Shown: positions 5,436 to 57,352 of the stretch, piece after piece
Layout of the letters: each line of letters begins with the position of its first letter
Position numbering within the stretch: position 1 is the first letter of the stretch
IMG/VR virus record: IMGVR_UViG_3300030616_000506
Span: 1 to 64,000 of that record
Direction: 5' to 3' (one strand)
Source: a virus
DNA length: 64,000 bases
Made by a program: the position numbers and the translations under genes
Notes under the pieces: generated by a model
What the model was told of the DNA's origin: nothing
Seen by the model: the letters and a program-made list of their open reading frames with translations, nothing else
Database searches by the model: none

Positions 5436-5900
5436 ATGATTCCCTTTAAATACAATGATAAAATATTATCTAAATCCACTGATGCACGAATATATCAAGA
5501 TGCTATATTGTTAACTCCTGGAGAATTTACGGACTCTTTAAGTAGAAGTCCTGTTGTATATACGGAAGAGGCTATACAAAAATCAGCTGGAAAATGGTCT
5601 GAAAATTATTTAAACTTAGATCATTCATATGAAACTCTAAATAGATTAGGATTTATAAAAAATACCTATTACAAGGATGGAGCAGTTAGAGGAGATCTTT
5701 ATATATTTCCTATAACAAATAATGCTAAGGATACAATAGCTATGATAGATAACAATTTAGTAAATTGGTTATCAGTTGAATTAACTACGGAAGATTATTG
5801 GAATACAGAGGATAACAAAAGATATGCTGACAATATAGATTATATTGGAGCCGCTATAGTCTTACATCCAGCCGATCCAGATACTAGAATTAAAACATGA
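5436..5900 (+). CDS. prohead-protease-like protein
   Basis: I chose ATG at 5436 because an earlier in-frame ATG at 5322 lies inside the portal gene and would add a Lys/Asn/Arg-rich tail unlike the rest. The 154-residue product has the layout of phage capsid-maturation serine proteases: a beta-rich start, His in LNLDHSYETL with LGFIKN soon after, and Ser in WLSVELTTEDYW near residue 110. These would cleave scaffold and capsid precursors inside the prohead. A second protein with the same His and Ser arrangement is encoded at 8347-9786. One of the two may be inactive or have a different role. Confidence 0.5.
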   Translation: MIPFKYNDKILSKSTDARIYQDAILLTPGEFTDSLSRSPVVYTEEAIQKSAGKWSENYLNLDHSYETLNRLGFIKNTYYKDGAVRGDLYIFPITNNAKDTIAMIDNNLVNWLSVELTTEDYWNTEDNKRYADNIDYIGAAIVLHPADPDTRIKT

Positions 5901-13903: not shown

Positions 13904-14383
13904 ATGGCAGGAACAGTAACAGGTAAGAATGCAAGAGTATGGTTTGCTGCACATGCAGCTGGAAGTGCTCCAACATTTACCAGTAAGAGTCATTCAACAT
14001 GGGGTCTAGGAGATTTCTCTCTAACTCTAGATAGAGGAACAGTAGAACAAGATTTAATAGGAGAAGATGGAAACTACTTCGATCAGGGTACAATATCAAT
14101 TGAAGGCTCAGTAACAGCAGCTAAATTTGCTACAAGCGGTTTATCAGATTTAATAGATAATATGTTCGATACAAAGGGTGGAACCTATAAATACCTAGCC
14201 GTATCGGGTACAATATCAACAGATACTGATGCTACATATATAAGTTGGTATTTAGCGTCTTGTCAAGTTACCGGTTATGATATTTCTATAGGAGATGCAG
14301 ATACAATCACGGAAGCAAGTATAGACTTCATAATGCTTAATCCACAAGATCTAACCTATATAGGTAATACCTTAGAGGGATAA
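13904..14383 (+). CDS. tail tube protein, type A copy 1
   Basis: The protein has 159 residues, beginning MAGTVTGKNARVWF. It shares with the next three genes the core GDFSLTLDRGTVEQDL, GN-x-x-x-x-G-x-x-S-x-EGS, and LASCQVTGYDISIGDADTIT. This is the beta-barrel layout of siphovirus major tail proteins. The type A form has the SHSTWG insert near residue 30 and ends MLNPQDLTYI. It is most like the third gene (14862-15356), so genes 1-2 and 3-4 look like a duplicated pair. It may build the tail tube alone or together with the other forms. Confidence 0.75.
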   Translation: MAGTVTGKNARVWFAAHAAGSAPTFTSKSHSTWGLGDFSLTLDRGTVEQDLIGEDGNYFDQGTISIEGSVTAAKFATSGLSDLIDNMFDTKGGTYKYLAVSGTISTDTDATYISWYLASCQVTGYDISIGDADTITEASIDFIMLNPQDLTYIGNTLEG

Positions 14384-14384
14384 A

Positions 14385-14849
14385 ATGGCAGGAACAGCAA
14401 CAGTATATACGGGTGAAGATGCACAGGTTACTATAACTACAAATGGAAAAACAGCTCTAACTCATACAACTTTAGCTATATCAGATTTCTCTTTAACCTT
14501 TAGTAAAGGAACTGCAGAACAGGAATTAGTTGGTGAAAAAGGTAATTTCATGATAGCAGGTTCTTTATCAGCTGAAGGGTCTCTTACAGCTTGTAAATTA
14601 CATAACACGGCTGTGGGATATCTCGTATCAGATATGGTTAATGGATTATCTATACAGGTATCAGGAAATTGTGGAGCAGAAAGTTTGCACTTCTATTTAA
14701 GAAGTTGTCAAATAACTGGATTTGATTTCAGCATAGGAACAGCAGATGAAATCACTGAAGGATCAATAGATTTCGTATCCTTATATCCATACAAATTATC
14801 AGCTCAACGTCAAGGTCTAGGTTATACCTATATTAATGATACTTATTAG
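14385..14849 (+). CDS. tail tube protein, type B copy 1
   Basis: The protein has 154 residues and starts two bases after the previous stop. It lacks the SHSTWG insert of type A and carries ALTHTTLAISDFSLTFSKGT, GEKGNFMIAGSLSAEGSLTA and DFSIGTADEITEGSIDF. Its closest relative in the window is the fourth gene (15363-15806), which shares GEKGNFMIAG and GTADEITEG. All four belong to one tail-tube family, so a tube of alternating or layered subunits is conceivable. Confidence 0.75.
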   Translation: MAGTATVYTGEDAQVTITTNGKTALTHTTLAISDFSLTFSKGTAEQELVGEKGNFMIAGSLSAEGSLTACKLHNTAVGYLVSDMVNGLSIQVSGNCGAESLHFYLRSCQITGFDFSIGTADEITEGSIDFVSLYPYKLSAQRQGLGYTYINDTY

Positions 14850-14861
14850 AGGTGAATAATT

Positions 14862-15356
14862 ATGGCAGGAACAGTAACAGGAAAAAATGCTAGAATTTGG
14901 TTGGTTGCTCATTCAGGTGGTACTTGGAATAGAGATACTTTCTCTAGTGATAAGAGTCACTCAACATGGGGTATGGGAGACTTTTCTTTAACTATTGATA
15001 GAGGAACGGTAGAGCAAGATCTTATGGGAGAAAGAGGTAACTACTTTAAACAAGGTACAATCTCAGTAGAAGGATCTTTAACTGCAGCTAAGTTTGCTAC
15101 ACCGGGATATTCAGATATTCTATATAATATGGCTCATTTTGATGAAGACAAATATAAATATCTTGCGATATCTGGTAGTATTTCAACTGATTCAGATGCA
15201 TGCTACTTCAAGTGGTGTTTGGCTAGCTGTCAGGTAACTGGATTCGATTTTTCATTAGGTGATGCAGATACTATAACGGAAGCGAGTGTTGATTTTGTAA
15301 TGCTAAATCCACAAGACTTAACTTATATAACTGCTGTCAGTGGAGTACAGGGGTGA
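14862..15356 (+). CDS. tail tube protein, type A copy 2
   Basis: The protein has 164 residues and is closely related to the gene at 13904: MAGTVTGKNARIW, KSHSTWGMGDFSLTIDRG, VEQDLMGERGNYFKQGT and MLNPQDLTYI. It ends with a slightly longer tail (TAVSGVQG). An AGAGGTGA ribosome-binding site precedes the ATG, stronger than at the other three copies, so this copy may be made in the largest amount. Confidence 0.75.
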   Translation: MAGTVTGKNARIWLVAHSGGTWNRDTFSSDKSHSTWGMGDFSLTIDRGTVEQDLMGERGNYFKQGTISVEGSLTAAKFATPGYSDILYNMAHFDEDKYKYLAISGSISTDSDACYFKWCLASCQVTGFDFSLGDADTITEASVDFVMLNPQDLTYITAVSGVQG

Positions 15357-15362
15357 TTAAAT

Positions 15363-15806
15363 ATGGCAACACCAACAATATATAAGGGTGATGATGCTAC
15401 AATCTATATTAGTGGATTAAAACATACAGTCCTTGCAATATCTGATTTTTCATTGACCCTAGGAAAGGGTACAGCGGAACAGGAGTTAATAGGTGAAAAG
15501 GGTAATTTCATGATAGCAGGAGCTATGTCAGCTGAAGGATCCCTAACTGCATGTAAATTACATGCATCAGCGGTATCTAAGTTAGTACAAAATATGATAG
15601 GTCAAGGAATCATAAGGGTATCTGGAAATTGTGGTGCTAATTCACTATACTTTAATCTAGCTAGTTGTCAAGTAACTGGTTTTGACTTTAGTATAGGAAC
15701 AGCAGATGAAATTACAGAGGGTACAATAGATTTTACATCGCTAATTCCATATAGAATAGAAGTATCATCAAGTTCGACTCAGACATTTTTATCAGATTGC
15801 ATGTAG
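15363..15806 (+). CDS. tail tube protein, type B copy 2
   Basis: The protein has 147 residues and is related to the gene at 14385: LKHTVLAISDFSLTLGKGT, GEKGNFMIAGAMSAEGSLTA and GTADEITEGTIDFTSL. A GGGGTGATTAA sequence before the ATG provides a GGTGA ribosome-binding site that overlaps the stop codon of the preceding gene. It ends the four-gene tail-tube block. Confidence 0.75.
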   Translation: MATPTIYKGDDATIYISGLKHTVLAISDFSLTLGKGTAEQELIGEKGNFMIAGAMSAEGSLTACKLHASAVSKLVQNMIGQGIIRVSGNCGANSLYFNLASCQVTGFDFSIGTADEITEGTIDFTSLIPYRIEVSSSSTQTFLSDCM

Positions 15807-15866
15807 ATCTAAATCAAACAAATATGTTTTCATGTTCTTTAATTCAAATTACGGAGGAAATTCAAT

Positions 15867-16355
15867 TTGGCTGAAGAAACTAAGAAAAAAGATTCTAGTC
15901 CACCAGAGAGCTTTGATGAGCTCAAAAATAAAATAAATAAGAAAAAGAATGTGGACACTAAATCAGTTATAAAACAAATAGCTACAAGAGATAAATTAGA
16001 AAGGGATTATAAAGAAGACCTATTGGAAGTCTCTTTCTACTCTTCACCAGAAACAAAGAGAATGATAAAATCTAGAAGGCCTACTCAAGTAGAGATGATG
16101 ACCATCATGAGATTATCAGCAGAAGCAGCTATTTATGAAGGTAGAATGGATACCAAATCATTACAAAAAATGGTTGATATATACGATAAACTACCGGAAT
16201 TAGCAGCAAAACTCAGTGTTGATACTAAATTAGATGAGGAATTCTGGAAGGAGAAGATATCCTTTGCAACTCTACAGAATTTTATAACTGAATTAATTAA
16301 AGAAACCCAAAAAGGTACAGGATTAACTGAAGAAGAGATGCAGACCTTTCGTTAA
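15867..16355 (+). CDS. tail assembly chaperone, short (G-like) form
   Basis: The start is TTG at 15867, preceded by ACGGAGGAAA at an ideal distance. No in-frame ATG exists near the start. The 162-residue product has a charged N-terminus, a helical centre (TQVEMMTIMRLSAEAAIYEG) and ends EEEMQTFR. Its position between tube and fibre or tape-measure genes is that of the gpG chaperone that coats the tape measure during tail assembly. The stop codon lies within an overlap with a second open frame that would give the longer gpGT form by frameshift. Confidence 0.7.
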   Translation: MAEETKKKDSSPPESFDELKNKINKKKNVDTKSVIKQIATRDKLERDYKEDLLEVSFYSSPETKRMIKSRRPTQVEMMTIMRLSAEAAIYEGRMDTKSLQKMVDIYDKLPELAAKLSVDTKLDEEFWKEKISFATLQNFITELIKETQKGTGLTEEEMQTFR

Positions 16356-16560
16356 AAGCGGGTTAGGCCAGCTTGAAGCAAGGGTTTGTGAATTTCTACA
16401 TGTAACTCCTAAACAACTAGGTAAACTAAGAGAAGAAGATCCAGCGGGTGTATCCTTTCTTGAGAGACACATCATCTGGAAAGCTGAACAAGAACATAAA
16501 GCTTATGAAGATGCTAAGAAGAAATCTAAATCTAGCAAGGGAAAAACTAGGAGAAGATAA
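16327..16560 (+). CDS. tail chaperone T-domain by +1 frameshift
   Basis: This frame is open from 16327 to a TAA at 16558 and has no ATG, GTG or TTG anywhere. It encodes VKSGLGQLEARVCEFLHVTP and a basic, helical tail ending KSSKGKTRRR. The likely site is TTT CGT TAA at 16347-16355: tRNA-Phe on TTT can slip one base forward to TTC while the rare CGT codon and the following stop slow the ribosome. The product would be 161 residues of the short form joined to 69 new ones. Most tail chaperones use -1 shifts; +1 is known in Listeria phage PSA genes. A -2 shift is the alternative. Confidence 0.7.
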   Translation: MKKRCRPFVKSGLGQLEARVCEFLHVTPKQLGKLREEDPAGVSFLERHIIWKAEQEHKAYEDAKKKSKSSKGKTRRR

Positions 16561-16818: not shown

Positions 16819-19800
16819 ATGGCATTTAACGATAATAAGAGTGCCGGTGATATAATATTATCACAGGACTGGGATGATTTTGTAGACTTTGCGGAATTAA
16901 TATCTAGTAATAGCTATGGACATAGCTCAAATACAAATATACACTTAACAACTACTCAGAAAACTGATTTAACTGATGGTGGAGAAACATCTCTACATAT
17001 TCATGATTCTAGATATTATACTGAAACTGAGCTCAATGGAGGACAGTTAGATACATTATATTACACTGAATCAGAAGTAGATGCTATTTCTGGAGCTATA
17101 GTAGAACATATAAAGATTAATTATCAACCTAGCGGTACAACTCAGTATCTAGATGATTTCTATCCATCTAGTTTTGGTGCAGGATTATCTGGATCATATA
17201 GTACCCATAGACAAGATTCTTCAATACACTTCACTAAATCATCTTTAGATGATGATTATGCAGGTTCATCTAATGTAAATTGGACTAAGATCACTGCAAT
17301 ATCAAGTGGATTTGATGGTAGATTAGATACACTAGAAGCACAAGATGAATTTGATCAAACTCTATATATAATTAGTGCTAACGCTATATATAGATTTTAC
17401 CCTTCATCTATAGGAGCGGGAGTATCTAGCAATCTTAAACTTATAAAATTATGGTATGATGCATCTAGCGGTAAATTGACTGATGCTTATAAAGAAAGAG
17501 GAAGTCAGATAGCTGGTGATGGATTAACTTGGGATGGTTCAGAAATAGATTTAGATCATTTAGGTTTTGAAGATCTATCTGATCCAGGTGGAGATAGGAT
17601 ATTATATTGGGATGAAGCATTTGGTGCTGATGGTTCACTTAAATGGGGAACAACTGGCACTGGTATAGATCTTACTGGCTCAGCTGGAAGTAAATCAATA
17701 TCAGTAGAGAGTGATTATACTGATTCTAAGGATTGGTATTTAGCTTCAGCACAAAAGTTATCAGAGTTTGCATCATCAGGAGATAAATATTCTAAGGCAT
17801 ATGCTTCTGCACAAATAGCTGTTTACGATTCCACTACAGGTGGAATAACTGGTTGGTATAATCTAGGTGTTGGCACTGGTATAACTCCATTTGGAGGTAG
17901 CGTATCTATAAGCGGTACACAAGATGAAACTTTAACGGTATTAGGATATACCACAATATCAACACAAGCTCAAAAGGCTTACGCTTCAGCTCAGATAGCT
18001 CTATATGAATCCACAGCTGGAGGAATATCAAATTGGAGAGATTTTAATGCAGCTGATAATAGTATAGCTGGATTTACTGGTACATATTCAGTATCAGGTA
18101 CAGGAGCATTATCTATATCAGTTCCTGGTTATCTAAATATATCCGGTAATGCACATGATGCTAAGACTTGGTATGATGCATCAGCACAAAAACTTTCTGA
18201 TATATCAGGTAGTTTAGCTAGTAAGATTAAAGAAAATTTAGCTGATCTTGATGATATTTCTGATATGACTAATAAATCTGGAGGAGACGTTTTAACCTGG
18301 GATACTTCACAAAGTAAATGGTCTTCTCAGGCATCACAAGCTGGAGGTATATCAAACTGGCAAACGTTCACTGCAGCTGACTCTAGTATAGCTGGTATGA
18401 CTGGAACATATGCTATATCAGGAGATGTAGCTCTTTCTATATCAGTACCTGGATATCTTAATATTTCAGGTAATGCTTTTGATGGAGCACAGTTCTCTGC
18501 TAATGCATCAGCATTATTTCCAGGAAGTTCTAATGTAAATAAGATTTATCTAGATACAGTTTCTAGTAATGCTGAAGCAGGAGCTTGGTTCTCAGCTAAT
18601 AGTAATCTTTTTGATCAAACTCTTTATATTACTTCAGCTAACGCTTTATCTATATTCACAGCATCATCCGTAGTTAATAAAACATATATAGATGAAGTAT
18701 CTTCAAATGCTGCAGCTGGTGCTTGGTTCTCAGCAAATAGTAATCAATTTGATAGTGAATTATATATTACATCTTCAAATTTATTAGGTAAATTTTACCC
18801 ATCAGCTTTAGGAAGAGCTTTGATGGATTTCTCATCCAATGCTTCTAACCTATATGAACCTAAAGGTGCATCTGGAACATCATGGTCTGGTGCTTTAGCA
18901 TATGTAGGTTTTTCATCTAACACTAAAGTTTTATATCATCCATCTGGTTATGTAGTATCAGGAGGAGAATATAGTCAAGCGTATGCATCTGCTCAACTAT
19001 TAAGAGAACCAGCCTTTGCTACATGGGGTAGAACATCAACTGCTGTAGCGAGTGGATCTCATAATCATCCTTTATCAGGATTAGCTGATGTAATAGGAAA
19101 CTTTGATTCTCATGCTTATCACGACTCCGGTTTAAAGTGGAATGAAGCTGCAGGAACCTGGCAAGTAACAAAGGTTGCTGGTGGAGGAGGTGCAGTAGAT
19201 AATTTCACAGTGAAAATAGATGCTGGTGCTACGGCAGATTATATAGGTAATGCATCAAATGATGGGGTTATCCAAACTGATACCACAATGACCTATATTG
19301 ATGGTGGTAATTTTGTGACTCTAGGTGTAAATGAATCTGGAATTTTAACAACGGTATCTAGTAATGCTAGACAGGCATATGAATTCTCTTCAGCTAGTGA
19401 TATATTTGATCACGAATTATATATTGCATCAAGTGTAGCTCTATCAACATTTGCTGATAGTTCTGCAATCATTATAAAAATTGACTCTAAATTAGATTCA
19501 ATTGCAGGAAGTGGAGCATTTTATCCTTCTTCTCTCGGTGCAGCTTTAATGGCATTTTCTTCTAATGCATCAAATCTCTATGAACCAAAGGGAGCTTCAG
19601 GTACATCTTGGTCGGGGGCTTTATCTTATGTTTCGTTTTCATCAAATACAAAATCATTGTATCATCCCTCTGGATATGTTATATCTGGAGCTGAGTATAG
19701 TCAAGCTTATGCATCGGCACAAGTAGCTCTTTATTCTCCAGTAATTCAATCTCAATTAGCATCTGGTTCTCAATACTGGAAAGCCTATATGTCAGCTCAG

Positions 19801-22800
19801 ATAGCACAGTATGAGACTGAATTAGGATCCATATCCTTTAATGCACCAACATATGCATCAGGACTTATAACAGTAGGTACCGGTAAAGTATCCGGTAGTT
19901 TAAAATTAACACTAAGAGATATACCACAAGATGTAATTAAGTCAGGAGCAAATTGGCAAAAGGCTTATATGAGTGCTCAGTTAGCTTCTTATTCAGATAC
20001 AGGAGACAGCTTAGGAATAGTTAATTGGAACACTCCAACTGCAACCTCTGGAGCAATGGTTCAAGGAGGTGGTATGGTATCTGGTACTTTATCCATCTTT
20101 ATAGAAGATTATATAGCCTCCTCTAGTGTAATAGCTAATACAGTTGCTAGTTCTACAGCTTTAGGTAAGTTTTATCCATCTACATTAGGAAAGTCATTAA
20201 TGGACTTTTCAAGTAATGCATCTAATTTATATGATAATCTTGGTGATATAACATGGGGAACTCCTACACGGGCATCAGGAGTGATATTAGTAGGAACCTC
20301 TGCTGTATCAGGTGCTTTAAAGGTAACCTTACGAGATATTCCACAAAACGTTATTAAATCCGGTGCTAATTGGCAAAAGGCATATATGTCTGCACAACTT
20401 GCCTCTTATTCTGACACTGGAGATAGTCTAGGAGTAGTTAATTGGCAAACTCCTACTGCATCATCAGGATTAATAGCTACTGGAGTTGGTAAAACATCTG
20501 GTAGTATAGCTTTTTATATTGAAGATTACATAGCATCAGCATCTGCTATAGCAAAATTCCCTGGTAGTTCTAACATTATAGGAAGATATCATCCATCTAG
20601 TTATGGAACATTTCCTTATATATCTACACAGGCTATATCTGGAGTTCATACACATGACGTAAGAATAGATTATTATGGAGACACAATCTTTGATGATGTA
20701 TGCATGTATAATTCAATGATGGATGCATCAGTATTAACATCTGGTGGAATTATCACTAGAACTGCTGCATGTACAGGTGCTATAGATATAAGTAGAGGAA
20801 TTGTCTATGTAAAAGAGGATACTCACGATACTGCAGAGGGATGGGTTTCTGAGATAGATGCCTCATCAAATATATATTTAGATGAAGGAATAAATTATAT
20901 TTATGTAGATTACAATTCTGGTTCTCCTAAATATGCACATAAAACAACATCTGGATTTAATAAGAATTCTCAATTTCCAATAGGTCAAGTATATAATGAT
21001 ACTACTACTGGAACAATGTCTCAACTTCATATATTCCAAGGTGGATATAGATTTCCAGCTCTTGGACAGAAAGTCCAACAGAGATTTGGAGAGGTATATG
21101 GTTTAGAAAGAAGTACAGGATTAGTCGCTGCATCTTCACAACAATCTGGACATCCATTATGCTTATCTGTAACTGATGGTATTTTCTGGAAAGGATTAAA
21201 TAAATTTACTATGCCAAGTATTGATACTGGTCACTATCATGACATAACTGCAGTGAATCAATCTGAAAGATGGTTTGCAATTACTGGTTCTAAAGACCCA
21301 CATCTAGCTATGGGATACTTTATTGAAGTTGAAGATTCAACTGGTAATGATGGTATCTATCAAGTGAGTTCTGCTATAGAACCTAGTAGTGCTGGATATA
21401 CTAGAATTGGGGTTTGGCAGGCAATTCCAGATGCTACAATAGATGGACATATACATGATGAAACATTTACTTATTGGTATAGAGATGGTGCTGGAGGATG
21501 GATTGCAAAGAGTGGTCAAACAGATGTTGATCCAAATTATTATGATGATGGTACTGGAACTCTTAATACAGTTGGAAATAGTAAATATGGAATCCATTGG
21601 TTATTTCTTGAATCTGATGGAGATTTGAATATTCTATATGGTCAAGGGGGTTATAATTTAGCTGAAGCAGAAGATGCAACTACTCCAAGTTCTACTCCAG
21701 ATTTAATAACTAATAATGCATCCTTGATTGCTAGATTAATTATTGAACAAGGAGAGACTGATTTAAGTAATGCTGAATTTTCAGTTCCCTGGGTAATTAA
21801 ATTCACAGCAGGTTCAGTTGACCAGCATAACGATTTAGGTGGAATACAAGGAGGTACAGCTGGTGAATATTATCACTTAACTTCTACAGATGATACTAAC
21901 TTTAATACTTTAACTGGTACTGGAGATGCATCTACATTACATCATCATGATGGAAGATATTATACAGAAACTGAATCTGATGCAATATCAGGAGCAATAG
22001 TTGATCATGTAAGATATAATTATTATCCATCATCTCTAGGTAAATCTTTGATGGACTTTTCTTCAAATGCTTCAAATTTATACGAACCTAAAGGTGCATC
22101 AGGCACCTCTTGGAGTGGTGCATTAGCTTATGTTGGATTTTCTTCCAATACTAAATCACTATATCATCCATCTGGATTTGTTATCTCAGGTAATGAGTAT
22201 TCACAAGCATACGCATCTACACAAGCTCTCAAAGAGCATGCTTTCCATACTATTATATCAGGTCAATATATAGATGATTATATTGCATCTTCAGAAACAA
22301 TTGGTAGATTTTTCCCATCTACTTTAGGTTCTACCTTGATATCATTCTCATCTAATGCAAAGAATTTATATGATAATTTAGGTGATGTTACATGGGGAGC
22401 ACCGACACAAGCTTCTGGAGTAGTTTTAGTAGGAACTTCAGCAGTATCAGGTTCACTTAAAGTAACATTAAGAGATATCCCACAGGATGTCATAAAATCA
22501 GGTGCTAACTGGCAGAAAGCTTATATGTCAGCTCAATTATTAAAGGATCCAGCTTTCTCAGACTTTGGTACATCCGCTGGTGATGTAGCTGAAGGAAATC
22601 ACACTCATACTCAATATGATAATCTTGGAGAAATATCATGGACTACTCCTACAGCTGGTGATGGAATATCACTAGATGGAACTACTGGAATGACCTCAGG
22701 CTCTTTGACTATAAAGGTAGATGATGACTCTGTTACACAAGGTATGCTAAAATCTGGTTCGGAATATTGGAAAGCTTATCTAAGTGCACAAGTAGCATCC

Positions 22801-25800
22801 TATACTGATACTGGTGGTGATGACTTAGGAACAATAGATTGGCAAGTTCCAACAGCATCATCGGGTTTAAAAATAACTAATCTAGGTAAAACCTCTGGAA
22901 GTCTTGCATTATACATTGAAGATTACATAGCGTCTACTAGTGCTATAGCTAAATTTGCAGGAAGCTCTTCTATAAATACAAAAATAGATGGTAAGTTGGA
23001 CTCTAATGCTGCAAGTGGTGCTTTTTATCCTTCAAGTTTAGGAAAGGGAGTATCTTCTCAGGTTCTAATAAATACATTACATTCAGCTAACTCTGATATT
23101 CATTTTACACAAGCTAGCATAACTACTGTAGGAACTATAGATACTGGAATTTGGAATGGAACTGATATAGACCCATATTATGTCATATCAGGAGAAAAGA
23201 CTCTAATATCTGGAGTTATGTTTTCTAAGGCATACGCTTCAGCACAAATTGCTAGTTATGAATCTAGTGGATTCGATGCAACTCAATATATTACTAGTTC
23301 AAACGCTTTAAGTTTATTTGCTGATAGTAGCACAACTCAGAGTAAATTTATTTTAACAAGTTCTTACAATGCTTCAGGAGCATTCTATCCTAGCTCATTA
23401 GGTAAATCTTTGATGTCTTACTCTAGTAATGCTAGAAGTTTATATGCAGGTACAGGAGCAGCATCTAAATGGAGATTAGGAGCTGGTGGAATTTATTATT
23501 CTGGGGAAATATCCTTAGGACATTCAGGTTTTGATATAGGAGATTATAAACTTCAAGTATCAGGTGCATCATTCTTTAGTGGTTCAGTAACCTTTTTAGG
23601 GGAGATATCAGGTGTTGCAATTCCTACATATGATAGTGGAGCATCTAGTAAAAAGTATGTAGATAACATATCAGGAGCTATAGTAAGTCATGTTTTATTT
23701 AATTATTATCCATCTACTTTAGGAATTGGGGTTTCAAGTAATGTTAAAATATTAAGTGATTGGTATAATGCATCTAGTAATGAATATTCAAGAGCATTTG
23801 CATCAGCTAACGCTTTAAGAGCTTTAGCATTTAAAGATTCAGTAGATATATCTGATGATACCAATCTTTCTGCAGGAGAAGGGATAACTTTAACTGGAGA
23901 TACTATATCATGGGCATCAGGTACACAACTTCATGGTGCTTGGGCAAGTACACAAGCTTTACAAGATCTTGCATTCAAAGCTAGTATTGATATAGGAGAT
24001 GATACAAACTTATCAGGTGGAGATGGTATTACTCTTACAGGAGATGTTATATCGTGGGCATCAGGCTCAGAATTACATAGTGCTTATCTATCTGCTCAAT
24101 CTCTAAAGGAACATAGTTTTCATACTCTAATTTCTGGTTCATACCTACAATCAGGTTTAAAATATTCAAAGGCTTATAGAAGTGCACAAATTGCATTATA
24201 TACTTCAGCTGGTGATAGTTTAGGTATAATTAATTGGAACACTCCTACAGCCACATCTGGTGTTAATATACAGGGAGGTGGAATGGTATCAGGTACCTTA
24301 GCAATATTCTTAGAGGATTATATAGCTAGTTCATCTGTAGTATCTAACTTTGCAAATAGTGGTATCTTACTTGGTAAATATTATCCATCAACTTTAGGTA
24401 AAAAGGCTTTAGCATCAGCTCAATCAGCTATGTTCCAGATACAAGATGGAATAACTAATTGGGATTCAACTGAGTTTTTAAATTCAGGAATAATGTGGGA
24501 TGGTACAAACTGGGAAGCTATGCCATCTGGAGGATCAGATGGTAATGGAGGACAATGGAGTTCTAGAACGGGTGGTATATATTATGAAAATGAAGTTACT
24601 GTAGGACATAGTGATTTTGATTTAGGAAATTATAAATTACAAGTATCTGGAGCCTCCTACTTTAGTGGATCAGTTGACTTTATTGGAGAGATTTCTGGAA
24701 TATCTGACCCAACTTATGCTAGCGGGGTTTCTAATAAACATTATGTTGATACCATATCAGGTGCTATAGTAGACCATGTTCTTTTTAATTATTACCCATC
24801 TGATTTAGGATTAGCTAATAATTTACATTCAAGTAATGCTGATTTACACTTTCCATCAAGCAATTTATTGGAATGGTTAGGAAATCACTATGCACCAACT
24901 GGTACATCTTTTGATGCAACATCCTATATCACATCATCTAACTCAATAGATAGATTTCATCCTTCTGGATTTGTAATATCTGGTGGTGAATATAGCCAGG
25001 CTTACGCTTCCGCTCAAGTAGCAGTATACTCACCTGTAACACAGTCACAACTTGCATCAGGAACATCTTATTGGAAAGCATATCTTTCTGCTCAGGTAGC
25101 ATCTTATGATGCCGGATCAGGAGATAGTTTAGGGTCAATTTCATGGAACACCCCTACTGCCGCATCAGGAATAATAGTTCAAGGTGGAGGTATGTTATCA
25201 GGAAACTTAGCTATATTTATGGAAGACTATATAGCATCCACTAATGCTGTAGCTAACTTTGCTCATAGTACTAATATAAATGGTAGATTTTATGGTAGTG
25301 GTTCTACTATTAATTCTAATTATATAATGTCTAGTGCTAAATTTACAGTTGCTGCAGATACTGATAATGATGGTTATCTAACATCAACTGATTGGGATAC
25401 CTTTAATAATAAGAGTGATACAGCTGGTGTTCCTGGAACTACTATAAGTAGTAACTTCTTCTTAGTGGGATCTGGTAACACTCTTTGGGGATGGTATAGT
25501 GCATCCGGAGAAAAGTTATCAACAATGTCTGGTAGTATAAACACTAAAATAAATAGTAAATTAGACTCAATGGCAGGAAGTGGTTCATTCTATCCATCAT
25601 CATTAGGTGCTGGTGTGTCATCCCAACATAAGATAGTTTATGATTGGTTTGCTGGTTCATCATCTAAGTATTCTGGTTGGTATACATCTGGAGCTAAATT
25701 TGCATTAGCTTATGATCATAGCCAGGATAATACCCAAGCTCACTCAGATTATCTACTAAATAGTGGAGATGATTCGTCAGATGGAGTTATAACTGCATTT

Positions 25801-26853
25801 GGATTTGTTGGAGCTCTATCTTCACAAAAGATATCAAGTGCTGCTCTCAAGATGGGAGTAGAAGTAACCAATATCTTAGATGAAGATGAGATGGATAGTG
25901 ACTCAGATACAGCTTTAGCTACCCAACAATCTATAAAGGCTTATGTTTTAAATAATGCAACTGGAGTTCCTGGGGCTACAATCAGTAGTAACTTCTTCCT
26001 AATAGGTTCCGGTAATACACTATGGTCTTGGTATGATGACTCATCTCAAAGTATATCTACTCATATAACTAATGTAGATGGAGTAAATGGATTAGTAAAG
26101 GGAGATGGAGCTGGGAATTATTCAGCAGTTACTGATAACTCATCTGATTGGGAAGCGGCTCATGATTGGTATAATGCATCATCTAGTAAAATATCTCAGA
26201 ATATAGATTCTGGTACCAAATATACATCAACTTATAATTGGTTTTCAGATTCATCATCAAAGATATCCAATATTGTAGCAAGTGGACATGAATATACTAA
26301 AGCTTATCAATCAGCACAAATAGCTATATATGAAGCTGGATCAGGTGATAGTCTGGGATCTATAGATTGGAATACCCCTACTGCTACATCAGGTTTATCC
26401 ATACAAAGTACTGGTATGGTGTCTGGTAGTTTGGCTATATTTATAGATGATTATATAAGTAGTTCTAATGCAGTTTCTAACTTTACTGGAAGCTCAAATG
26501 TAAATAGAAATTATATTGATAATGTATCATCTAATGCTCAAGCTGCATATAATTGGACTAATTCAGTTTCAGGTCAAATATTAGCATACCCTTCATCCTT
26601 AGGGAAATCTTTATATGACTTCTCAAGTAATGTTCAGGCAGGGACAGTTACCTATAATGCAGTATCATCTGCAGCTATATCAGGAGCTTGGACTGCTCCT
26701 ATATATAGAACAAATAAACCAGCTGCAGCAGTTGCATATGAAGGTCAAATAATAGTAGCATCTGGTGGTACAGACAAGAAATCTTGGGTATTTATTTGTC
26801 TCCATAATGATGCTAATGGTTATGAATGGGTACAGTTAGGATTGAGTACATAA
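16819..26853 (+). CDS. giant repetitive tail fibre (3344 aa)
   Basis: This is the longest gene of the window. It is rich in Ser, Ala, Gly, Asn and Tyr with short repeats around SAQIA, SNASNLYEP and FYPSSLG, typical of trimeric phage fibres. One long module (LMDFSSNASNLYEPKGAS and on) occurs near 18.81, 19.53 and 22.03 kb. A second (LRDIPQDVIKSGANWQKAYM) occurs near 19.91, 20.32 and 22.47 kb. A third, ending in a variant of IFIEDYIAS, occurs about six times. A non-repetitive island at residues 1275-1670 may form a globular domain. The N-terminus (GHSSNTNIHLTTTQK) resembles that of the fibre at 43806. The likely role is host recognition. Confidence 0.85.
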   Translation: MAFNDNKSAGDIILSQDWDDFVDFAELISSNSYGHSSNTNIHLTTTQKTDLTDGGETSLHIHDSRYYTETELNGGQLDTLYYTESEVDAISGAIVEHIKINYQPSGTTQYLDDFYPSSFGAGLSGSYSTHRQDSSIHFTKSSLDDDYAGSSNVNWTKITAISSGFDGRLDTLEAQDEFDQTLYIISANAIYRFYPSSIGAGVSSNLKLIKLWYDASSGKLTDAYKERGSQIAGDGLTWDGSEIDLDHLGFEDLSDPGGDRILYWDEAFGADGSLKWGTTGTGIDLTGSAGSKSISVESDYTDSKDWYLASAQKLSEFASSGDKYSKAYASAQIAVYDSTTGGITGWYNLGVGTGITPFGGSVSISGTQDETLTVLGYTTISTQAQKAYASAQIALYESTAGGISNWRDFNAADNSIAGFTGTYSVSGTGALSISVPGYLNISGNAHDAKTWYDASAQKLSDISGSLASKIKENLADLDDISDMTNKSGGDVLTWDTSQSKWSSQASQAGGISNWQTFTAADSSIAGMTGTYAISGDVALSISVPGYLNISGNAFDGAQFSANASALFPGSSNVNKIYLDTVSSNAEAGAWFSANSNLFDQTLYITSANALSIFTASSVVNKTYIDEVSSNAAAGAWFSANSNQFDSELYITSSNLLGKFYPSALGRALMDFSSNASNLYEPKGASGTSWSGALAYVGFSSNTKVLYHPSGYVVSGGEYSQAYASAQLLREPAFATWGRTSTAVASGSHNHPLSGLADVIGNFDSHAYHDSGLKWNEAAGTWQVTKVAGGGGAVDNFTVKIDAGATADYIGNASNDGVIQTDTTMTYIDGGNFVTLGVNESGILTTVSSNARQAYEFSSASDIFDHELYIASSVALSTFADSSAIIIKIDSKLDSIAGSGAFYPSSLGAALMAFSSNASNLYEPKGASGTSWSGALSYVSFSSNTKSLYHPSGYVISGAEYSQAYASAQVALYSPVIQSQLASGSQYWKAYMSAQIAQYETELGSISFNAPTYASGLITVGTGKVSGSLKLTLRDIPQDVIKSGANWQKAYMSAQLASYSDTGDSLGIVNWNTPTATSGAMVQGGGMVSGTLSIFIEDYIASSSVIANTVASSTALGKFYPSTLGKSLMDFSSNASNLYDNLGDITWGTPTRASGVILVGTSAVSGALKVTLRDIPQNVIKSGANWQKAYMSAQLASYSDTGDSLGVVNWQTPTASSGLIATGVGKTSGSIAFYIEDYIASASAIAKFPGSSNIIGRYHPSSYGTFPYISTQAISGVHTHDVRIDYYGDTIFDDVCMYNSMMDASVLTSGGIITRTAACTGAIDISRGIVYVKEDTHDTAEGWVSEIDASSNIYLDEGINYIYVDYNSGSPKYAHKTTSGFNKNSQFPIGQVYNDTTTGTMSQLHIFQGGYRFPALGQKVQQRFGEVYGLERSTGLVAASSQQSGHPLCLSVTDGIFWKGLNKFTMPSIDTGHYHDITAVNQSERWFAITGSKDPHLAMGYFIEVEDSTGNDGIYQVSSAIEPSSAGYTRIGVWQAIPDATIDGHIHDETFTYWYRDGAGGWIAKSGQTDVDPNYYDDGTGTLNTVGNSKYGIHWLFLESDGDLNILYGQGGYNLAEAEDATTPSSTPDLITNNASLIARLIIEQGETDLSNAEFSVPWVIKFTAGSVDQHNDLGGIQGGTAGEYYHLTSTDDTNFNTLTGTGDASTLHHHDGRYYTETESDAISGAIVDHVRYNYYPSSLGKSLMDFSSNASNLYEPKGASGTSWSGALAYVGFSSNTKSLYHPSGFVISGNEYSQAYASTQALKEHAFHTIISGQYIDDYIASSETIGRFFPSTLGSTLISFSSNAKNLYDNLGDVTWGAPTQASGVVLVGTSAVSGSLKVTLRDIPQDVIKSGANWQKAYMSAQLLKDPAFSDFGTSAGDVAEGNHTHTQYDNLGEISWTTPTAGDGISLDGTTGMTSGSLTIKVDDDSVTQGMLKSGSEYWKAYLSAQVASYTDTGGDDLGTIDWQVPTASSGLKITNLGKTSGSLALYIEDYIASTSAIAKFAGSSSINTKIDGKLDSNAASGAFYPSSLGKGVSSQVLINTLHSANSDIHFTQASITTVGTIDTGIWNGTDIDPYYVISGEKTLISGVMFSKAYASAQIASYESSGFDATQYITSSNALSLFADSSTTQSKFILTSSYNASGAFYPSSLGKSLMSYSSNARSLYAGTGAASKWRLGAGGIYYSGEISLGHSGFDIGDYKLQVSGASFFSGSVTFLGEISGVAIPTYDSGASSKKYVDNISGAIVSHVLFNYYPSTLGIGVSSNVKILSDWYNASSNEYSRAFASANALRALAFKDSVDISDDTNLSAGEGITLTGDTISWASGTQLHGAWASTQALQDLAFKASIDIGDDTNLSGGDGITLTGDVISWASGSELHSAYLSAQSLKEHSFHTLISGSYLQSGLKYSKAYRSAQIALYTSAGDSLGIINWNTPTATSGVNIQGGGMVSGTLAIFLEDYIASSSVVSNFANSGILLGKYYPSTLGKKALASAQSAMFQIQDGITNWDSTEFLNSGIMWDGTNWEAMPSGGSDGNGGQWSSRTGGIYYENEVTVGHSDFDLGNYKLQVSGASYFSGSVDFIGEISGISDPTYASGVSNKHYVDTISGAIVDHVLFNYYPSDLGLANNLHSSNADLHFPSSNLLEWLGNHYAPTGTSFDATSYITSSNSIDRFHPSGFVISGGEYSQAYASAQVAVYSPVTQSQLASGTSYWKAYLSAQVASYDAGSGDSLGSISWNTPTAASGIIVQGGGMLSGNLAIFMEDYIASTNAVANFAHSTNINGRFYGSGSTINSNYIMSSAKFTVAADTDNDGYLTSTDWDTFNNKSDTAGVPGTTISSNFFLVGSGNTLWGWYSASGEKLSTMSGSINTKINSKLDSMAGSGSFYPSSLGAGVSSQHKIVYDWFAGSSSKYSGWYTSGAKFALAYDHSQDNTQAHSDYLLNSGDDSSDGVITAFGFVGALSSQKISSAALKMGVEVTNILDEDEMDSDSDTALATQQSIKAYVLNNATGVPGATISSNFFLIGSGNTLWSWYDDSSQSISTHITNVDGVNGLVKGDGAGNYSAVTDNSSDWEAAHDWYNASSSKISQNIDSGTKYTSTYNWFSDSSSKISNIVASGHEYTKAYQSAQIAIYEAGSGDSLGSIDWNTPTATSGLSIQSTGMVSGSLAIFIDDYISSSNAVSNFTGSSNVNRNYIDNVSSNAQAAYNWTNSVSGQILAYPSSLGKSLYDFSSNVQAGTVTYNAVSSAAISGAWTAPIYRTNKPAAAVAYEGQIIVASGGTDKKSWVFICLHNDANGYEWVQLGLST

Positions 26854-31529: not shown

Positions 31530-34500
31530 ATGAGCTCTCTCGGAAAATTAACGGTCTATGTAGATGCTAACATAAAGGGATTTACTTCCCAAATGGGTAA
31601 ACTTAGAACTGAAGTTCAAAAGATGAACAAAACCATAACTAAAGAAGCTACAAAGGGTGCTGGTAAAAGTAAAAACTTATTTGGTGATCCAAGAGATGCA
31701 GCAGCATATGCAGAAAAGGTTAGGGCATCTTTACAAAAAATCTTAGGACCATTATATCAAGTTAAAAATACCGTTAGAGAAGTGGATGGTCAATTTAAGG
31801 TAGGAGGAGCATCCATAACTAAATCAGCCCAAAGAATGGGAACCGGTATAGCATCTGGTGCTAAAACTGGAATGGCTGGATTATTATCTTTAAGATCCTT
31901 TATGGCTAAAATAGTTCACTATATTACCTTCAGTATAGGTGTACAGTTAGTTATGGGAATTAGACAAGCATTCTCATCTCTTATAGAAACATTTTCTGAA
32001 TATGAGAGAGCCATTACAAATGCCGTAACTGTATCGGGATATCTAGGATCAGCCTTTGAAGAAGTTAAGGATAGAGTATCTGATCTAGCTGAAACTTTAA
32101 GCAAAAAGACCGTATATAGCTCTTTAGAGGTAGCTAAGGCTTTTTACAGTATAGCATCAGCAGGTTATGATATATCTAAAATAACTGAACAAGAAGTTAT
32201 ACCCATACTAAATTATGCTGCAGCAACTCAAGCTGAACTCGATACCGCTACACAAGCAGTATTAACAACCATTAAAGCATTTAATCTAACTCTAGAAGAT
32301 ACCGCTAGAGTTACGGATGTATTTGTATCCGCAATTACATCATCATTTTTGACCATGGATAAGCTAAGGGAAGCCATGAAATATGTAGCTCCAATAGCGG
32401 GTACCTTAGGAGTATCAGTAGAAGAAACAGTAGGAGCAGTAGCAGCATTAGCTAATGTTGGTATGGAAGGTGGACAAGCTGGACAACGTTTAAATATGGT
32501 TCTAACTAAGTTACTAAAACCAACTGATAGAGCAAGAACTATGTTTGAGAGTATGGGGCTAACCATGCAAGATTTAGATCCTAATATACATTCCATAGTT
32601 GATATTTTATATAAATTACAAGCAGCAAACTTTGGTGCTGCAGAAGCTGCAACTATGTTTAGAGCAAGAACAGCAGGTGCAGCAGTAGTATTAGTGGAAA
32701 ATGCAGATTCGATAGCTAGAATGATAACTCAATATAAATTAGCTTTAGGAGTTACGGAAGCAGTAGCTCAAGCTCAAGAAGAAACTTTATGGGGAACTCT
32801 AAAGAAAACTGCAGATGAAATGCAGAGAATAGCAATAAATATAGGAGAGCAGCTAGCTCCATCAATAGAAAATATATTAACAAGTTTATTAAGTACATTT
32901 GAACCTCTGCTCTTAGGTTTAGGTAGCACTCTAAATAGTATATTCACTACTTTAACAGGTACATTTAATCAATTAAAGCCTCTAATACAGGGAATGGTTA
33001 ATGGTGTTGTTACTTTAGTTAATTCATTTTTATCTTTGTATAATATTATAAAGCCTATTTTACCAGTAATAATTATGTATTTCGTCATAATGAAAAGTTT
33101 AAAATTAATATTATGGGCTGTTGCTAAGGCTACAGTATTTTACTATAAAGTATTACTTCCATTAGCTAAATTCATAAGGATGTTAGTTACTTATAAGAAG
33201 ACATATGTAGGTGTCTCTCTTATGCTACATAAAGCTGTATTAGCTGAATCAGTAGCTAACGTTCAGGCAGCTGGATCTCAAGCTGTTTTAACTGGCTCAA
33301 CAGTTGCTTTAACAGGTGCTATAAAATCTCTAACTGCAGCTTTATTAACGAATCCTTTAACTTGGTTTGCTGTAGCTATAGGTGCAGTGGTTGCAGCATT
33401 TGCTGTGTTTGGAAGAGGTCAGCAAAAAATATCTAGATATGTTAGATCTTCAAGTGAAGAGATGGCTATTCAGATGGGAATAATGGAAGATACTGATAGT
33501 GTATTATTAAAATCTACTAAAAATATGAGAAAATTCTGGGGAGCTATGTCTGAATTATACTTTGAAAATAAGGAGGATCCTTGGTCCGCTATAAATATTG
33601 GAAAGTTTGCAGAGGATATGAAAATAACAGAAAAAGATCTTAGAGAGGTTTATAAAAGATTAATGGATGATACTGAAGAATATATAGGTATAAATAAAAA
33701 AGAATTAAGAGAAGCTCTAGAAACTTGGGGTAATATAGAATCAATTGAAGGTGTTGGAGCAATAATGAAAAATATAAGTAAGGAAACAGTAGAATATGTC
33801 AATAATTTAATAGCATCTGCAACTAAGAATAAAGAAAAATTAAGAGCTGTAGTAGATTTATCGGATGAATATATAGGATATCAAGTAGCTATAGAAAATG
33901 CTATACAAGCAGATAAAGATGAGAAAGTAGCATTGGATGCTCTAAATGATGCATATCTTAATAATGCAGATAGTTTAGATATATTAATAGAAAAAACTGA
34001 AGAATATGAAGCAGCTAAAGCAAAATCAACTAAAACTGATGAGTTGTTATTAACAGCCGTTAAAGATTTGTTAACTGGTATAAGATCCTATTCTGAAGAT
34101 TTATCGGGTGATGAGCCAGGAGGTAATCTAGATGAATGGGTAGGAATATTAGAAGATGCATCAGCAAAAACATTTGAATTATCTGAAAAACAGGCTAGAC
34201 AAACTATAATAATGAGAGATCAAAAAAATGCAGCTGTGGAATTATCTAGAGCTATTCTACAATATGGATCAAGTTCAGATGAAGCAGCTTCTGCACAAGA
34301 GCGTTTAAATACTCTAATAGAAGCTAGTGCTAGTCTTACTACTGAAATAGCTGAAATACAATCAGTAATAAATACAAACACTAGTTTATATAATGCAGTA
34401 TTGAAGGATAGAGTAGATGATACTCAATTATTGACTGATACAGAGAAATTATTATTACAAGATGCAAACAATATCATAAATATTAGAGATAAATCTATAA

Positions 34501-37500
34501 AGGCTGAGATAAAATATAATAAAGCTTTAGCTCAACAAAATGTTTTGGATAATATCAGAGAAAGTCACTCTACTATATTAGAAGAAAAGATGAGAATTTA
34601 CCTAGAAGCTCAACAAAAAATATTTGATATAGAAGAGAAACTATATAAATTAAGAGTTAATGAAGATGAACAAATGGAGGGATTATTTGATAAATTAGCT
34701 GAGCAAGGTCAGTTAACTGAAGAGATGATAAAAATGTATTCTGATATAGAAGAGGCTCAAGGAGCTATATTAGAAATTGAATATGACCATACTAGAGCTT
34801 TCGATGCTTTAACTGAATCTCAACAAGAAGTTGTTAAGGCATATTATAGGGGAGAAGTTGGTTTAGATGCATTAAGAGCTGCAGGTATAGATAATATAGA
34901 TATATTTGAAATATATAAACAAAGACAACAAGACTTAAAGGATGCTACAGATGCTTTTAGGGAAGCAATAATACCATTAGTTTCTGATTTAAAGGATATA
35001 GGAGCTATAACAGCTGAGACAGCACAAGCTTATTATGATATTATAGATAATGCTCTTGAAGTAGCTCAGGCTAATTTTGATATGTTAGAGAGTCAAAATG
35101 CTATAGTTGATAGTTGGAATGGTATGATAGACACTAATTCTATGTTAGCATTATCATTAATGGATAATGCAGACTCAGCATCTAGTGTTATAGATGTGTA
35201 TGACGAATTTTTAAATAAATTAGGAGTTACTAGACAGGAAGCATCTTCTACCATGGGATCCTTAGGAGCTCTTAGTGATGAAGAATTAATAGTTGGAGCT
35301 ACTCTAATACAAGCAGCTAAAAGTATAGGAGTTTATGAAGAAGGAATGTCTATAGCTGAATTAAAAAATAAACTAATGATTAAGTCCTTAGAAGATCTTA
35401 ATAATATAGCTACAGTAAGTCTTTCATCTATGGAACCTTATTATGAAATTGCTGATGCTGTTGGTGAATTAAAGACAGCTTTTGATTTAGCTAAGGATGC
35501 ATTACTAGACTTAACAGCTCAATTACAGGTATTTCTTGGTCTTACTAGTGAAGATATGTTTGAATTTTCAGTTGGATTTAATTTTAAAGAAGTTTTAGAG
35601 AGAGGATTCAAGGGAAATTTGGAAGCGTTACTAGATTTTGCAAAAGGGAAGGGATATGAGTTTTCATTTGATATTGCTAGTCAATGGGAAGGAGAAGATT
35701 GGAAGTCATTTATAGATGCAATAGATGATAATTATATGCCTGCACTTGAGGGAATACTAGAGGATGTATCTCCTGAAATAGATATAAATACTGAATGGGA
35801 TGGAAACGAATGGAAATCTTGGTATAGTAATTTAAGTAGTACCAAGAAAAATCAAATAAATAGAGCATTTGATAATTTTATATATAAATTTGAAGTTGGA
35901 ACATTATGGGATGGTACAGATTATGTTTCTTGGTATAATAGTTTATCATCAGATAAACAAACCGCTATAAAAACTATAATTGGGAATATGGGAGGAGATA
36001 TAAAAAATATAACAAAATGGGATAATGAAGATTGGGATAATTTTTTAAATACACTTCTTCCACAACATGAACTTGCTATCCAAGAATTAATGGATGCTTG
36101 GGATTTAACTTTTAATATACAACCAAATTTTGAAGAACCGAAAAAACCTGAGGAACCATTTAAGGATGTAGTAGTACTTCCAGATACACCTACTGGTAGT
36201 ATTGGATTATCAAAGGGTCAGACTGTAATTAGTCCAGATAAAGTAAAAATAATTCCAGATACACCTACTGGTAGTATTGGATTAGCTCCTGGTGATATAG
36301 TTGTAGATCGTGGAACTGTAGAAAAAGCAAATGCAGGAAACATAACTTTACCTCCAGGTATTCGTAATATTATAGAGAAAAGTCCATTAGGACATCTATT
36401 AAAACTTCAATCAGGTGGAATTATAACCAAACAACAACTTGCATTAATTGGAGAAAAAGGACCAGAAGCAATAATTCCTCTAACTGGTTCTAATAAAAAA
36501 GAAGGAGAGAAGATATTAGCTTCTATAATACCTGAATTTTTCCCAATAGTTCATGAAAAATTACCTACTTTACCACCAGGATCTAATATAGATCCCAGAG
36601 ATTGGTATGGAAACTCACTACCCCCTAAACCTTATTCTGGGTTCAATAAGGATGATTATGAATTCAATAAACTAGATTTATGGATTCAGGCTGAAGAAAA
36701 TTTAGGCAAATTAAATGATAGCTTAAAGAAAAGAGGAGTAAGTGAAGAAACTATTGCTAGATTAGCTCCTATAGCTGCTGATAAGTTTAAAGGAAAAATA
36801 GGAGACTCATCTAAAGAACTTGAATTTGCAATTGATTGGGTTATTCAAAATGAAAAGAAATCAGCTTTAGAAAAGATAAATATAGAAAAAACTGCTGCCG
36901 AAAGTGTATCTATCTCACTATCAGATTCTACCAATATGTTAACATCATCCTTTAATGATGTACTATCAGATTTTAGTGAAACATCCTTAACTGCATCTCA
37001 AAATTGGATACAATCAGTTCTAAAAAGCTCTGGGGATTGGCTAAGTTATATAAACACAACTTCACAAAACTGGTATGAATCAGTAGGAAATTCAGCTATC
37101 TCTCTTTATAATTACATTATTTCTTCATCAGACCAATTTAATACCCTATTAACTTCTACTGGAGGAGTATTCTCATCTCAAGTTTTATCAGCTAGTGTTG
37201 TATTATTATCTCATGCCACTATAGCTAGTGGATTGATAGTTGCAGCAGCTACTGAATTAATGAGAAAAATAAATGCTGCTAGCATCAATATTAACGTGCA
37301 ACATTCTCATGTGTTCTCTTATTATTATTATACCTTTGGTTGGGCTAAGGGAGGTATAGTACCCGGTCTACAAAAAGGAGATATAGTTAAGGGATCTCAA
37401 ATAATTGAAGTTGGAGAAAAAGGTGCAGAAGCTATAGTGCCATTAACGGGTACAAATAAGAAATTTGGTGAGAAAATATTACAAACAATAATACCTAAAT

Positions 37501-37703
37501 ATTATCCTGATTTATTTTTACAAGCTCAAACGGGGGGTCTCTTTGGTGGAGCCACTGGAGGTAGTGTTACTTATGGTGGTGATACTAATTATGTTGATGA
37601 GTATAATATAATGGGCCCCATAACAGTTACAGGAGTTCAAGACGTAAAAGGATTTATGGATAATTTAAAGATGAGAGCAAGGGCTACAGGAGCTAGAAAG
37701 TAA
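31530..37703 (+). CDS. tail tape measure protein (2057 aa)
   Basis: Residues 130-430 form a TP901-type tape-measure domain, with YERAITNAVTVSGYLGSAF, VAKAFYSIASAGYDISK and GVSVEETVGAVAALANVG. Hydrophobic stretches lie near 495-560 and 605-630. Long helical or coiled-coil regions fill 700-1380. Four units spaced by about 37 residues (WEGEDW, WDGNEW, WDGTDY, WDNEDW) lie at 1386-1500. Two C-terminal GEKGPEAIIPLTG/GEKGAEAIVPLTG motifs at about 1642 and 1962 are typical of tape-measure ends. At the usual 1.5 angstrom per residue, the length predicts a tail of about 300 nm, so the virus is probably a long-tailed siphovirus. Confidence 0.92.
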   Translation: MSSLGKLTVYVDANIKGFTSQMGKLRTEVQKMNKTITKEATKGAGKSKNLFGDPRDAAAYAEKVRASLQKILGPLYQVKNTVREVDGQFKVGGASITKSAQRMGTGIASGAKTGMAGLLSLRSFMAKIVHYITFSIGVQLVMGIRQAFSSLIETFSEYERAITNAVTVSGYLGSAFEEVKDRVSDLAETLSKKTVYSSLEVAKAFYSIASAGYDISKITEQEVIPILNYAAATQAELDTATQAVLTTIKAFNLTLEDTARVTDVFVSAITSSFLTMDKLREAMKYVAPIAGTLGVSVEETVGAVAALANVGMEGGQAGQRLNMVLTKLLKPTDRARTMFESMGLTMQDLDPNIHSIVDILYKLQAANFGAAEAATMFRARTAGAAVVLVENADSIARMITQYKLALGVTEAVAQAQEETLWGTLKKTADEMQRIAINIGEQLAPSIENILTSLLSTFEPLLLGLGSTLNSIFTTLTGTFNQLKPLIQGMVNGVVTLVNSFLSLYNIIKPILPVIIMYFVIMKSLKLILWAVAKATVFYYKVLLPLAKFIRMLVTYKKTYVGVSLMLHKAVLAESVANVQAAGSQAVLTGSTVALTGAIKSLTAALLTNPLTWFAVAIGAVVAAFAVFGRGQQKISRYVRSSSEEMAIQMGIMEDTDSVLLKSTKNMRKFWGAMSELYFENKEDPWSAINIGKFAEDMKITEKDLREVYKRLMDDTEEYIGINKKELREALETWGNIESIEGVGAIMKNISKETVEYVNNLIASATKNKEKLRAVVDLSDEYIGYQVAIENAIQADKDEKVALDALNDAYLNNADSLDILIEKTEEYEAAKAKSTKTDELLLTAVKDLLTGIRSYSEDLSGDEPGGNLDEWVGILEDASAKTFELSEKQARQTIIMRDQKNAAVELSRAILQYGSSSDEAASAQERLNTLIEASASLTTEIAEIQSVINTNTSLYNAVLKDRVDDTQLLTDTEKLLLQDANNIINIRDKSIKAEIKYNKALAQQNVLDNIRESHSTILEEKMRIYLEAQQKIFDIEEKLYKLRVNEDEQMEGLFDKLAEQGQLTEEMIKMYSDIEEAQGAILEIEYDHTRAFDALTESQQEVVKAYYRGEVGLDALRAAGIDNIDIFEIYKQRQQDLKDATDAFREAIIPLVSDLKDIGAITAETAQAYYDIIDNALEVAQANFDMLESQNAIVDSWNGMIDTNSMLALSLMDNADSASSVIDVYDEFLNKLGVTRQEASSTMGSLGALSDEELIVGATLIQAAKSIGVYEEGMSIAELKNKLMIKSLEDLNNIATVSLSSMEPYYEIADAVGELKTAFDLAKDALLDLTAQLQVFLGLTSEDMFEFSVGFNFKEVLERGFKGNLEALLDFAKGKGYEFSFDIASQWEGEDWKSFIDAIDDNYMPALEGILEDVSPEIDINTEWDGNEWKSWYSNLSSTKKNQINRAFDNFIYKFEVGTLWDGTDYVSWYNSLSSDKQTAIKTIIGNMGGDIKNITKWDNEDWDNFLNTLLPQHELAIQELMDAWDLTFNIQPNFEEPKKPEEPFKDVVVLPDTPTGSIGLSKGQTVISPDKVKIIPDTPTGSIGLAPGDIVVDRGTVEKANAGNITLPPGIRNIIEKSPLGHLLKLQSGGIITKQQLALIGEKGPEAIIPLTGSNKKEGEKILASIIPEFFPIVHEKLPTLPPGSNIDPRDWYGNSLPPKPYSGFNKDDYEFNKLDLWIQAEENLGKLNDSLKKRGVSEETIARLAPIAADKFKGKIGDSSKELEFAIDWVIQNEKKSALEKINIEKTAAESVSISLSDSTNMLTSSFNDVLSDFSETSLTASQNWIQSVLKSSGDWLSYINTTSQNWYESVGNSAISLYNYIISSSDQFNTLLTSTGGVFSSQVLSASVVLLSHATIASGLIVAAATELMRKINAASININVQHSHVFSYYYYTFGWAKGGIVPGLQKGDIVKGSQIIEVGEKGAEAIVPLTGTNKKFGEKILQTIIPKYYPDLFLQAQTGGLFGGATGGSVTYGGDTNYVDEYNIMGPITVTGVQDVKGFMDNLKMRARATGARK

Positions 37704-57320: not shown

Positions 57321-57352
57321 ATTATCACCTCACATCCTTTTACTGTTGGATA

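Follow-up and report, generated by a model that had tools for sequence, protein, structure and literature searches.

Two overlapping frames between the tail tube and tape measure genes

The DNA analysed here, referred to as the window, is a stretch of 64,000 nucleotides belonging to a virus record of 144,545 bases. Two overlapping open reading frames at positions 15,867 to 16,560 lie between the tail tube and tape measure genes, the layout of a tail assembly chaperone gene with a short product (G) and an extension (T). The features at and around the junction are as follows.

13904..15806, + strand: four tandem major-tail-protein paralogues, upstream, with one PHROG tail match
15853..15857, + strand: GGAGG, Shine-Dalgarno-like, before the TTG start of ORF1, read as AATTACGGAGGAAATTCAAT and then TTG
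15867..16355, + strand: ORF1, putative gpG-like tail assembly chaperone, zero-frame product of 162 aa ending ...EEEMQTFR
16327..16560, + strand: T extension in the +1 frame; translated part 16351-16557, 69 codons, VKSGLGQLEARVCEFL...TRRR, plus stop
16344..16352, + strand: predicted shift site ACC_UUU_CGU, with the P-site Phe codon at 16347-16349 and the A-site CGU at 16350-16352
16353..16355, + strand: zero-frame stop TAA of ORF1; in relatives, 0-7 codons separate it from CGT
31530..37703, + strand: tape measure protein, matching PHROGs up to 4e-53

The 3' end of ORF1 reads ATG CAG ACC TTT CGT TAA. The T frame overlaps this end, lies +1 (or -2) relative to ORF1 and is open for 77 codons, 68 of them past the stop and 69 past the shared Phe. 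ATG, GTG and TTG are all absent from the whole frame (16327-16560 of the window), and T would be reached only by a frameshift. The original prediction had described such a startless frame after and overlapping the chaperone gene, entered by a shift of +1 or -2; both points were confirmed. A check of gene ends took in 144 kb of the virus genome. Among 292 gene-end frames, 87 were open for at least 60 codons past the stop, and only one of these, the T frame, had no start codon. As the sole frame among the 292 that is open this far without a start, this layout is more than chance. A scan for TTTCG at junctions over the same 144 kb returned the T junction alone.

G gave no match in Pfam or PHROG. 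Structure prediction was run on G and T separately rather than on the G-T fusion. The AF2 model of G (pLDDT 77) contained a beta hairpin and helices; its best matches in BFVD (E 2e-4) were unnamed proteins, and named tail chaperones and a pre-tape-measure frameshift protein were matched weakly (E 0.08-0.4). T was predicted to be all-helical, with three helices (pLDDT 79.5), as had been proposed, and its fold matches were weak. Tail-tube paralogues precede G in all relatives. The tape measure gene directly follows T in the most distant relatives (L048, L050, L051); in the window, the two are separated by other genes, one of them encoding a 3344-aa protein. We take the gene to be a G/GT chaperone on the basis of its position and layout, in support of the earlier assignment; its roles in tail assembly are suggested by analogy with lambda.

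The virus carries archaeal-type replication genes, including a PriL/PriS-like primase, a Hef/Xpf nuclease, a RadA/RadB-like recombinase and a family B polymerase, and its major capsid protein (MCP) is nearest to those of haloviruses. A search with the MCP returned two MAG contigs, one carrying the same TTT CGT site; the capsid relatives come from two MAGs, one of ANME-2 and one from Guaymas that carries the label Planctomycetota. An archaeal host is well supported, and the window clade is not from haloarchaea. The contig binned in the Planctomycetota MAG from Guaymas Basin (L068) is itself a virus of the window clade and is probably mis-binned.

Several other features of the window were recorded. 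A Hint/LAGLIDADG intein appears to be present in the terminase large subunit (1416-3821), and the four tandem tail-tube paralogues at 13904-15806 are of two alternating types. A 3344-aa fibre-like protein built of repeated short motifs (YASAQ, SSNA, WNTPTASSG) is encoded at 16819-26853, after T and ahead of the tape measure gene region. On the minus strand, 49004-63897 holds a very large sugar/glycan gene cluster that extends beyond the window and is unusual in a virus; its genes include PEP mutase, radical SAM, epimerases and transketolase-like genes.

Conservation of the junction and direction of the shift

Relatives of the G/T pair were collected from three IMG/VR scans and one contig in a GTDB MAG, giving 27 distinct sequences with G identity to the window down to 37%. 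Searches with G found no relatives in GTDB genomes or in isolated phages. The junction TTT CGT was present in all 27 sequences, each time in frame within the overlap and followed by an open +1 ORF. In the 26 sequences analysed jointly, the codon before TTT was TCC (18), AAA (6) or ACC (2), and the codon after CGT was TAA (11), TGA (8), AAA (6) or GGA (1). The longer unit TTTCGTTAA, whose conservation in relatives had been suggested as a check, was not conserved as such; the conserved unit is TCC, ACC or AAA followed by TTT CGT.

This constancy stands out from the codon usage around it. Among 34 conserved degenerate columns of G, only the Phe and Arg at its end used a single codon throughout the 26 sequences, against a median top-codon share of 0.58. 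The Ser before the shift site was TCC in 18/18 cases, though TCC makes up 8% of Ser codons in the relatives' loci; there, TTT accounts for 65% of Phe codons and CGT for 7.7% of Arg codons. Elsewhere TTT CGN is nearly absent: it occurred 19 times in 44,782 codons of 18 relatives' loci, 18 of these being the shift sites, and 3 times in 34,908 codons of the virus's own genome; relatives share ancestry, and simple probabilities drawn from such counts therefore overstate significance. The overlap partly dictates CGT, since frame 0 requires Arg and frame +1 requires Val. It forces neither TTT in place of TTC nor TCC ahead of TTT.

T was also conserved as a protein. Its length in relatives was 62-71 codons (one T cut by a contig end aside), with 21 invariant columns in 9 sequences and 11 in 20 sequences. 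Variability by codon position in the +1 reading was 0.41/0.23/0.54. This pattern, together with the 11 invariant residues in 20 sequences, indicates that the +1 ORF is coding. In a metagenome contig such as this one, the frame change might be suspected to come from gene decay or from an error of sequencing or assembly. Its recurrence at one position across many samples and 27 distinct sequences, and purifying selection on both halves, refute this explanation, and we regard its probability as negligible. Within T, one TGT Cys codon (window 16387-16389) was the same in 26/26 sequences, which may be codon bias; no structure explaining it was found.

Translation of T on its own, through a non-standard start, re-initiation or a separate message, would gain some credit from relatives that have an in-frame ATG, GTG or TTG early in T. 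These starts are not at conserved places, the window and about half of the relatives have no usable start near the beginning of T, and the shift codon is precisely where conservation of T sets in. We therefore consider independent translation very unlikely, and a shift at the junction is preferred. Slippage of the RNA polymerase would result in the same fusion. Such slippage usually requires long homopolymers, and the run of T here is only three long. UUU_CGN is, in addition, already known as a ribosomal site. A transcriptional origin is thus even less probable than independent translation of T, and a ribosomal shift is the reading we follow.

The position of the shift could be narrowed from the upstream limit of the T frame. 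In over half of the relatives, the +1 frame opens 6 nt before UUC, owing to an upstream stop. The shift must therefore fall on the codon before TTT, on TTT or on CGT, that is, within about three codons. Forward re-pairing of TCC or ACC on CCU, of AAA on AAU and of CGU on GUN would be poor by pairing rules, and UUU on UUC would be sound and would improve the third pair. The identical frame would result from a -2 shift, which occurs in phage Mu gpGT (PMC3498833) and is stated in the GenBank notes on HRTV-14, HJTV-2, HRTV-25 and HRTV-27 among the Hafunaviridae. A Phe tRNA moved back two bases must, however, pair on CCU, AAU, AGU, GGU and so on. The upstream codon is variable (TCC, ACC, AAA, AAG, GGG, GGA, CAG, GAA), and only the forward base C is constant. 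Because no other re-pairing is sound and a -2 shift needs bases that differ among relatives, pairing rules point to +1 at UUU_C; the -2 shift is, in our estimate, highly improbable.

We consider it very probable that 15867-16560 is a tail assembly chaperone gene (G/G-T) belonging to an uncultured tailed archaeal virus, with a long form made by a +1 slip at UUU_CGU. From the layout, the conserved +1 frame and the invariant TTT CGT, we infer the slippage and its rate as follows. Most ribosomes would stop after ...TFR (...SFR in most relatives), giving G. Otherwise, tRNA-Phe (anticodon GAA) would slip one base forward from UUU to UUC at 16348-16350, a better pair, with CGU in the A site. Translation would then continue at GUU and yield a G-T fusion of about 230 aa. 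By analogy with lambda, the fusion would function together with G, the tape measure protein being coated by G and the tail tube protein being recruited by the T tail.

The original prediction had proposed this tRNA-Phe re-pairing on TTC with CGT in the A site, and TTT CGT in 27/27 sequences supports it. It had also made the stop part of the signal, and this part did not hold, as the stop lies 1-7 codons farther on in about a third of the relatives; in one of them (L020), the zero frame continues for 7 codons. The site thus differs from the stop-codon-dependent +1 type (prfB, antizyme, tsh), with CGU in the A site and the stop 1-7 codons later in several relatives. Nor does it resemble a structure-stimulated site: prediction of downstream RNA structure gave no consensus pairs in 26 sequences and z-scores of 0.12 to -1.5, pseudoknots being outside the model. 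No viral tRNA able to tune decoding was found in the virus. CGT was said to be rare, and it is so in this genome (1.0 per 1000 codons, 2.7% of Arg). Rarity did not stand as a general cause, given the use of CGC at the same site in haloviruses, where it is the commonest Arg codon. The shift signal is independent of stop position, predicted structure and codon rarity.

UUU_C junctions in other archaeal viruses

We expected beforehand that relatives of the Hafunaviridae and Haloferuviridae G in IMG/VR would share the TTT-C junction. All 31 distinct haloarchaeal-virus loci from IMG/VR, some of which are the isolates themselves, had an in-frame TTT-C with an open +1 T. The junction was TTT CGY in 30 of them and TTT CCG in one, in genomes that prefer TTC overall. 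In HSTV-2, where the annotation joins the two parts of the chaperone gene, the overlap contains AAG TCC TTT CGC, and the other Hafunaviridae examined all have AAG or GAA TTT CGY. HFTV1, HRTV-4, HRTV-29 and BLv36 have GGG TTT CGC, with T in the +1 frame and mutually alignable T sequences. TTT is the minority Phe codon, at 13% in HSTV-2 and 48% in haloferuviruses. Arg is encoded most often by CGC in HSTV-2 and the Haloferuviridae, which means that a scarce A-site codon cannot explain the shift in general. What stays constant in the site is UUU_C, with CGY strongly preferred.

No homology of the window G to hafunavirus or haloferuvirus G was detectable, and T was borderline against haloferuvirus T (E 5e-4, probability 30%). 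Beyond these families, Methanobacterium virus Drs3 has a +1 junction at ~23640 (AAA TTT CCT GAA), where gene 30 meets a 45-codon extension that lacks annotation. HGTV-1 shows a -1 arrangement at GAT TTT CAC (5824-5832), seemingly reaching a similar T (FSRTGLGQ...), and psiM2 has a -1 rather than a +1 site. The +1 site is thus not universal in archaeal viruses. No +1 T was seen in Bacillus phage KLEB27-3, which has a related capsid protein. The HGTV-1 junction looks as though the same Phe codon slipped in the opposite direction.

Relation to known frameshift sites

The window bears comparison with lambda gpG/gpGT, which also lies between the tail tube and tape measure genes and gives a short and a long form. 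Lambda uses -1 tandem slippage on a heptamer, whereas the window would use +1 slippage on one codon. The tail chaperone frameshift of tailed phages was reportedly treated by Xu, Hendrix and Duda in 2004. The tsh gene of Listeria phages PSA, A118 and A500 (CCC_UGA) resembles the window in its +1 P-site slippage near a stop; it is a tail tube gene rather than a chaperone gene, with a Pro codon and a stop in the A site.

The statement that no +1 case had been described in archaeal viruses could not be maintained. The tail chaperone of HSTV-2 was reported as +1, according to passages of PMC5009743 and PMC8211752 that cite Pietila 2013. HSTV-2 resembles what is predicted for the window in forming G/GT by +1, with TCC TTT CGC in the overlap; unlike the window virus, it is a contractile-tailed halovirus with an unrelated G sequence. 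TTT-CGC was proposed for HF1-group haloviruses in the 2020 Serpecor1/Hardycor2 paper (PMC7230728), which was based on six closely related genomes and linked the site to the PA-X and amalgavirus sites. The HF1 group and the window, both archaeal tailed viruses, share the gene pair, the direction and the TTT-CGY motif. Their G sequences are not alignable, and the window clade, which is AT-rich, has CGT in place of CGC.

In influenza A virus, +1 shifting at UCC_UUU_CGU has been proven (PMC3498833), and the UUU_CGN motif class has been described for eukaryotic viruses (PMC3498833, PMC5052127). The nine-base PA-X site is identical to the TCC TTT CGT of most relatives, for which the same P-site move from UUU to UUC is predicted. 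PA-X and the amalgavirus UUU_CGN belong to RNA viruses of eukaryotes and to proteins unrelated to those of the window, and the likeness is presumably convergent.

A 2021 review (PMC8211752) names the -1 shift of fucA1 as the sole programmed frameshift that has been demonstrated in archaeal cells. The open-access literature contained, in our searches, neither a measured +1 product at any archaeal UUU_CGN site nor a paper joining the halovirus families and the window clade. With +1 in HSTV-2 already reported in the passages mentioned above and TTT-CGC already proposed for HF1-like haloviruses, what is new is an unrelated archaeal virus clade outside haloarchaea, the addition of the Haloferuviridae, and far stronger comparative support, drawn from sequence comparison, for a site of a kind already proposed.

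These observations incline us, with some reserve, to see UUU_C(GY) slippage as a +1 element that is both old and general among the chaperones of archaeal tailed viruses, kept in at least three lineages with unalignable G and working on archaeal ribosomes with no need for a stop codon, RNA structure or codon scarcity. If this is true, the PA-X-type site would be a signal common to archaeal and eukaryotic ribosomes. A six-base +1 site that is constant across nearly 60 distinct archaeal virus sequences, and that matches the influenza PA-X site exactly, offers a simple, testable +1 case in archaea. It speaks against a leading role for codon rarity (CGC being common in haloviruses) or for stop codons, and in favour of a property of UUU-then-CGN itself. 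GenBank annotations can also be corrected on this basis. The hafunavirus records noted as -2 all fit +1 at TTT CGY, as do HRTV-29, listed as -1, and HFTV1 gp36/gp37 and HRTV-4 gp64/gp65, which are listed as separate hypothetical proteins with no fusion.
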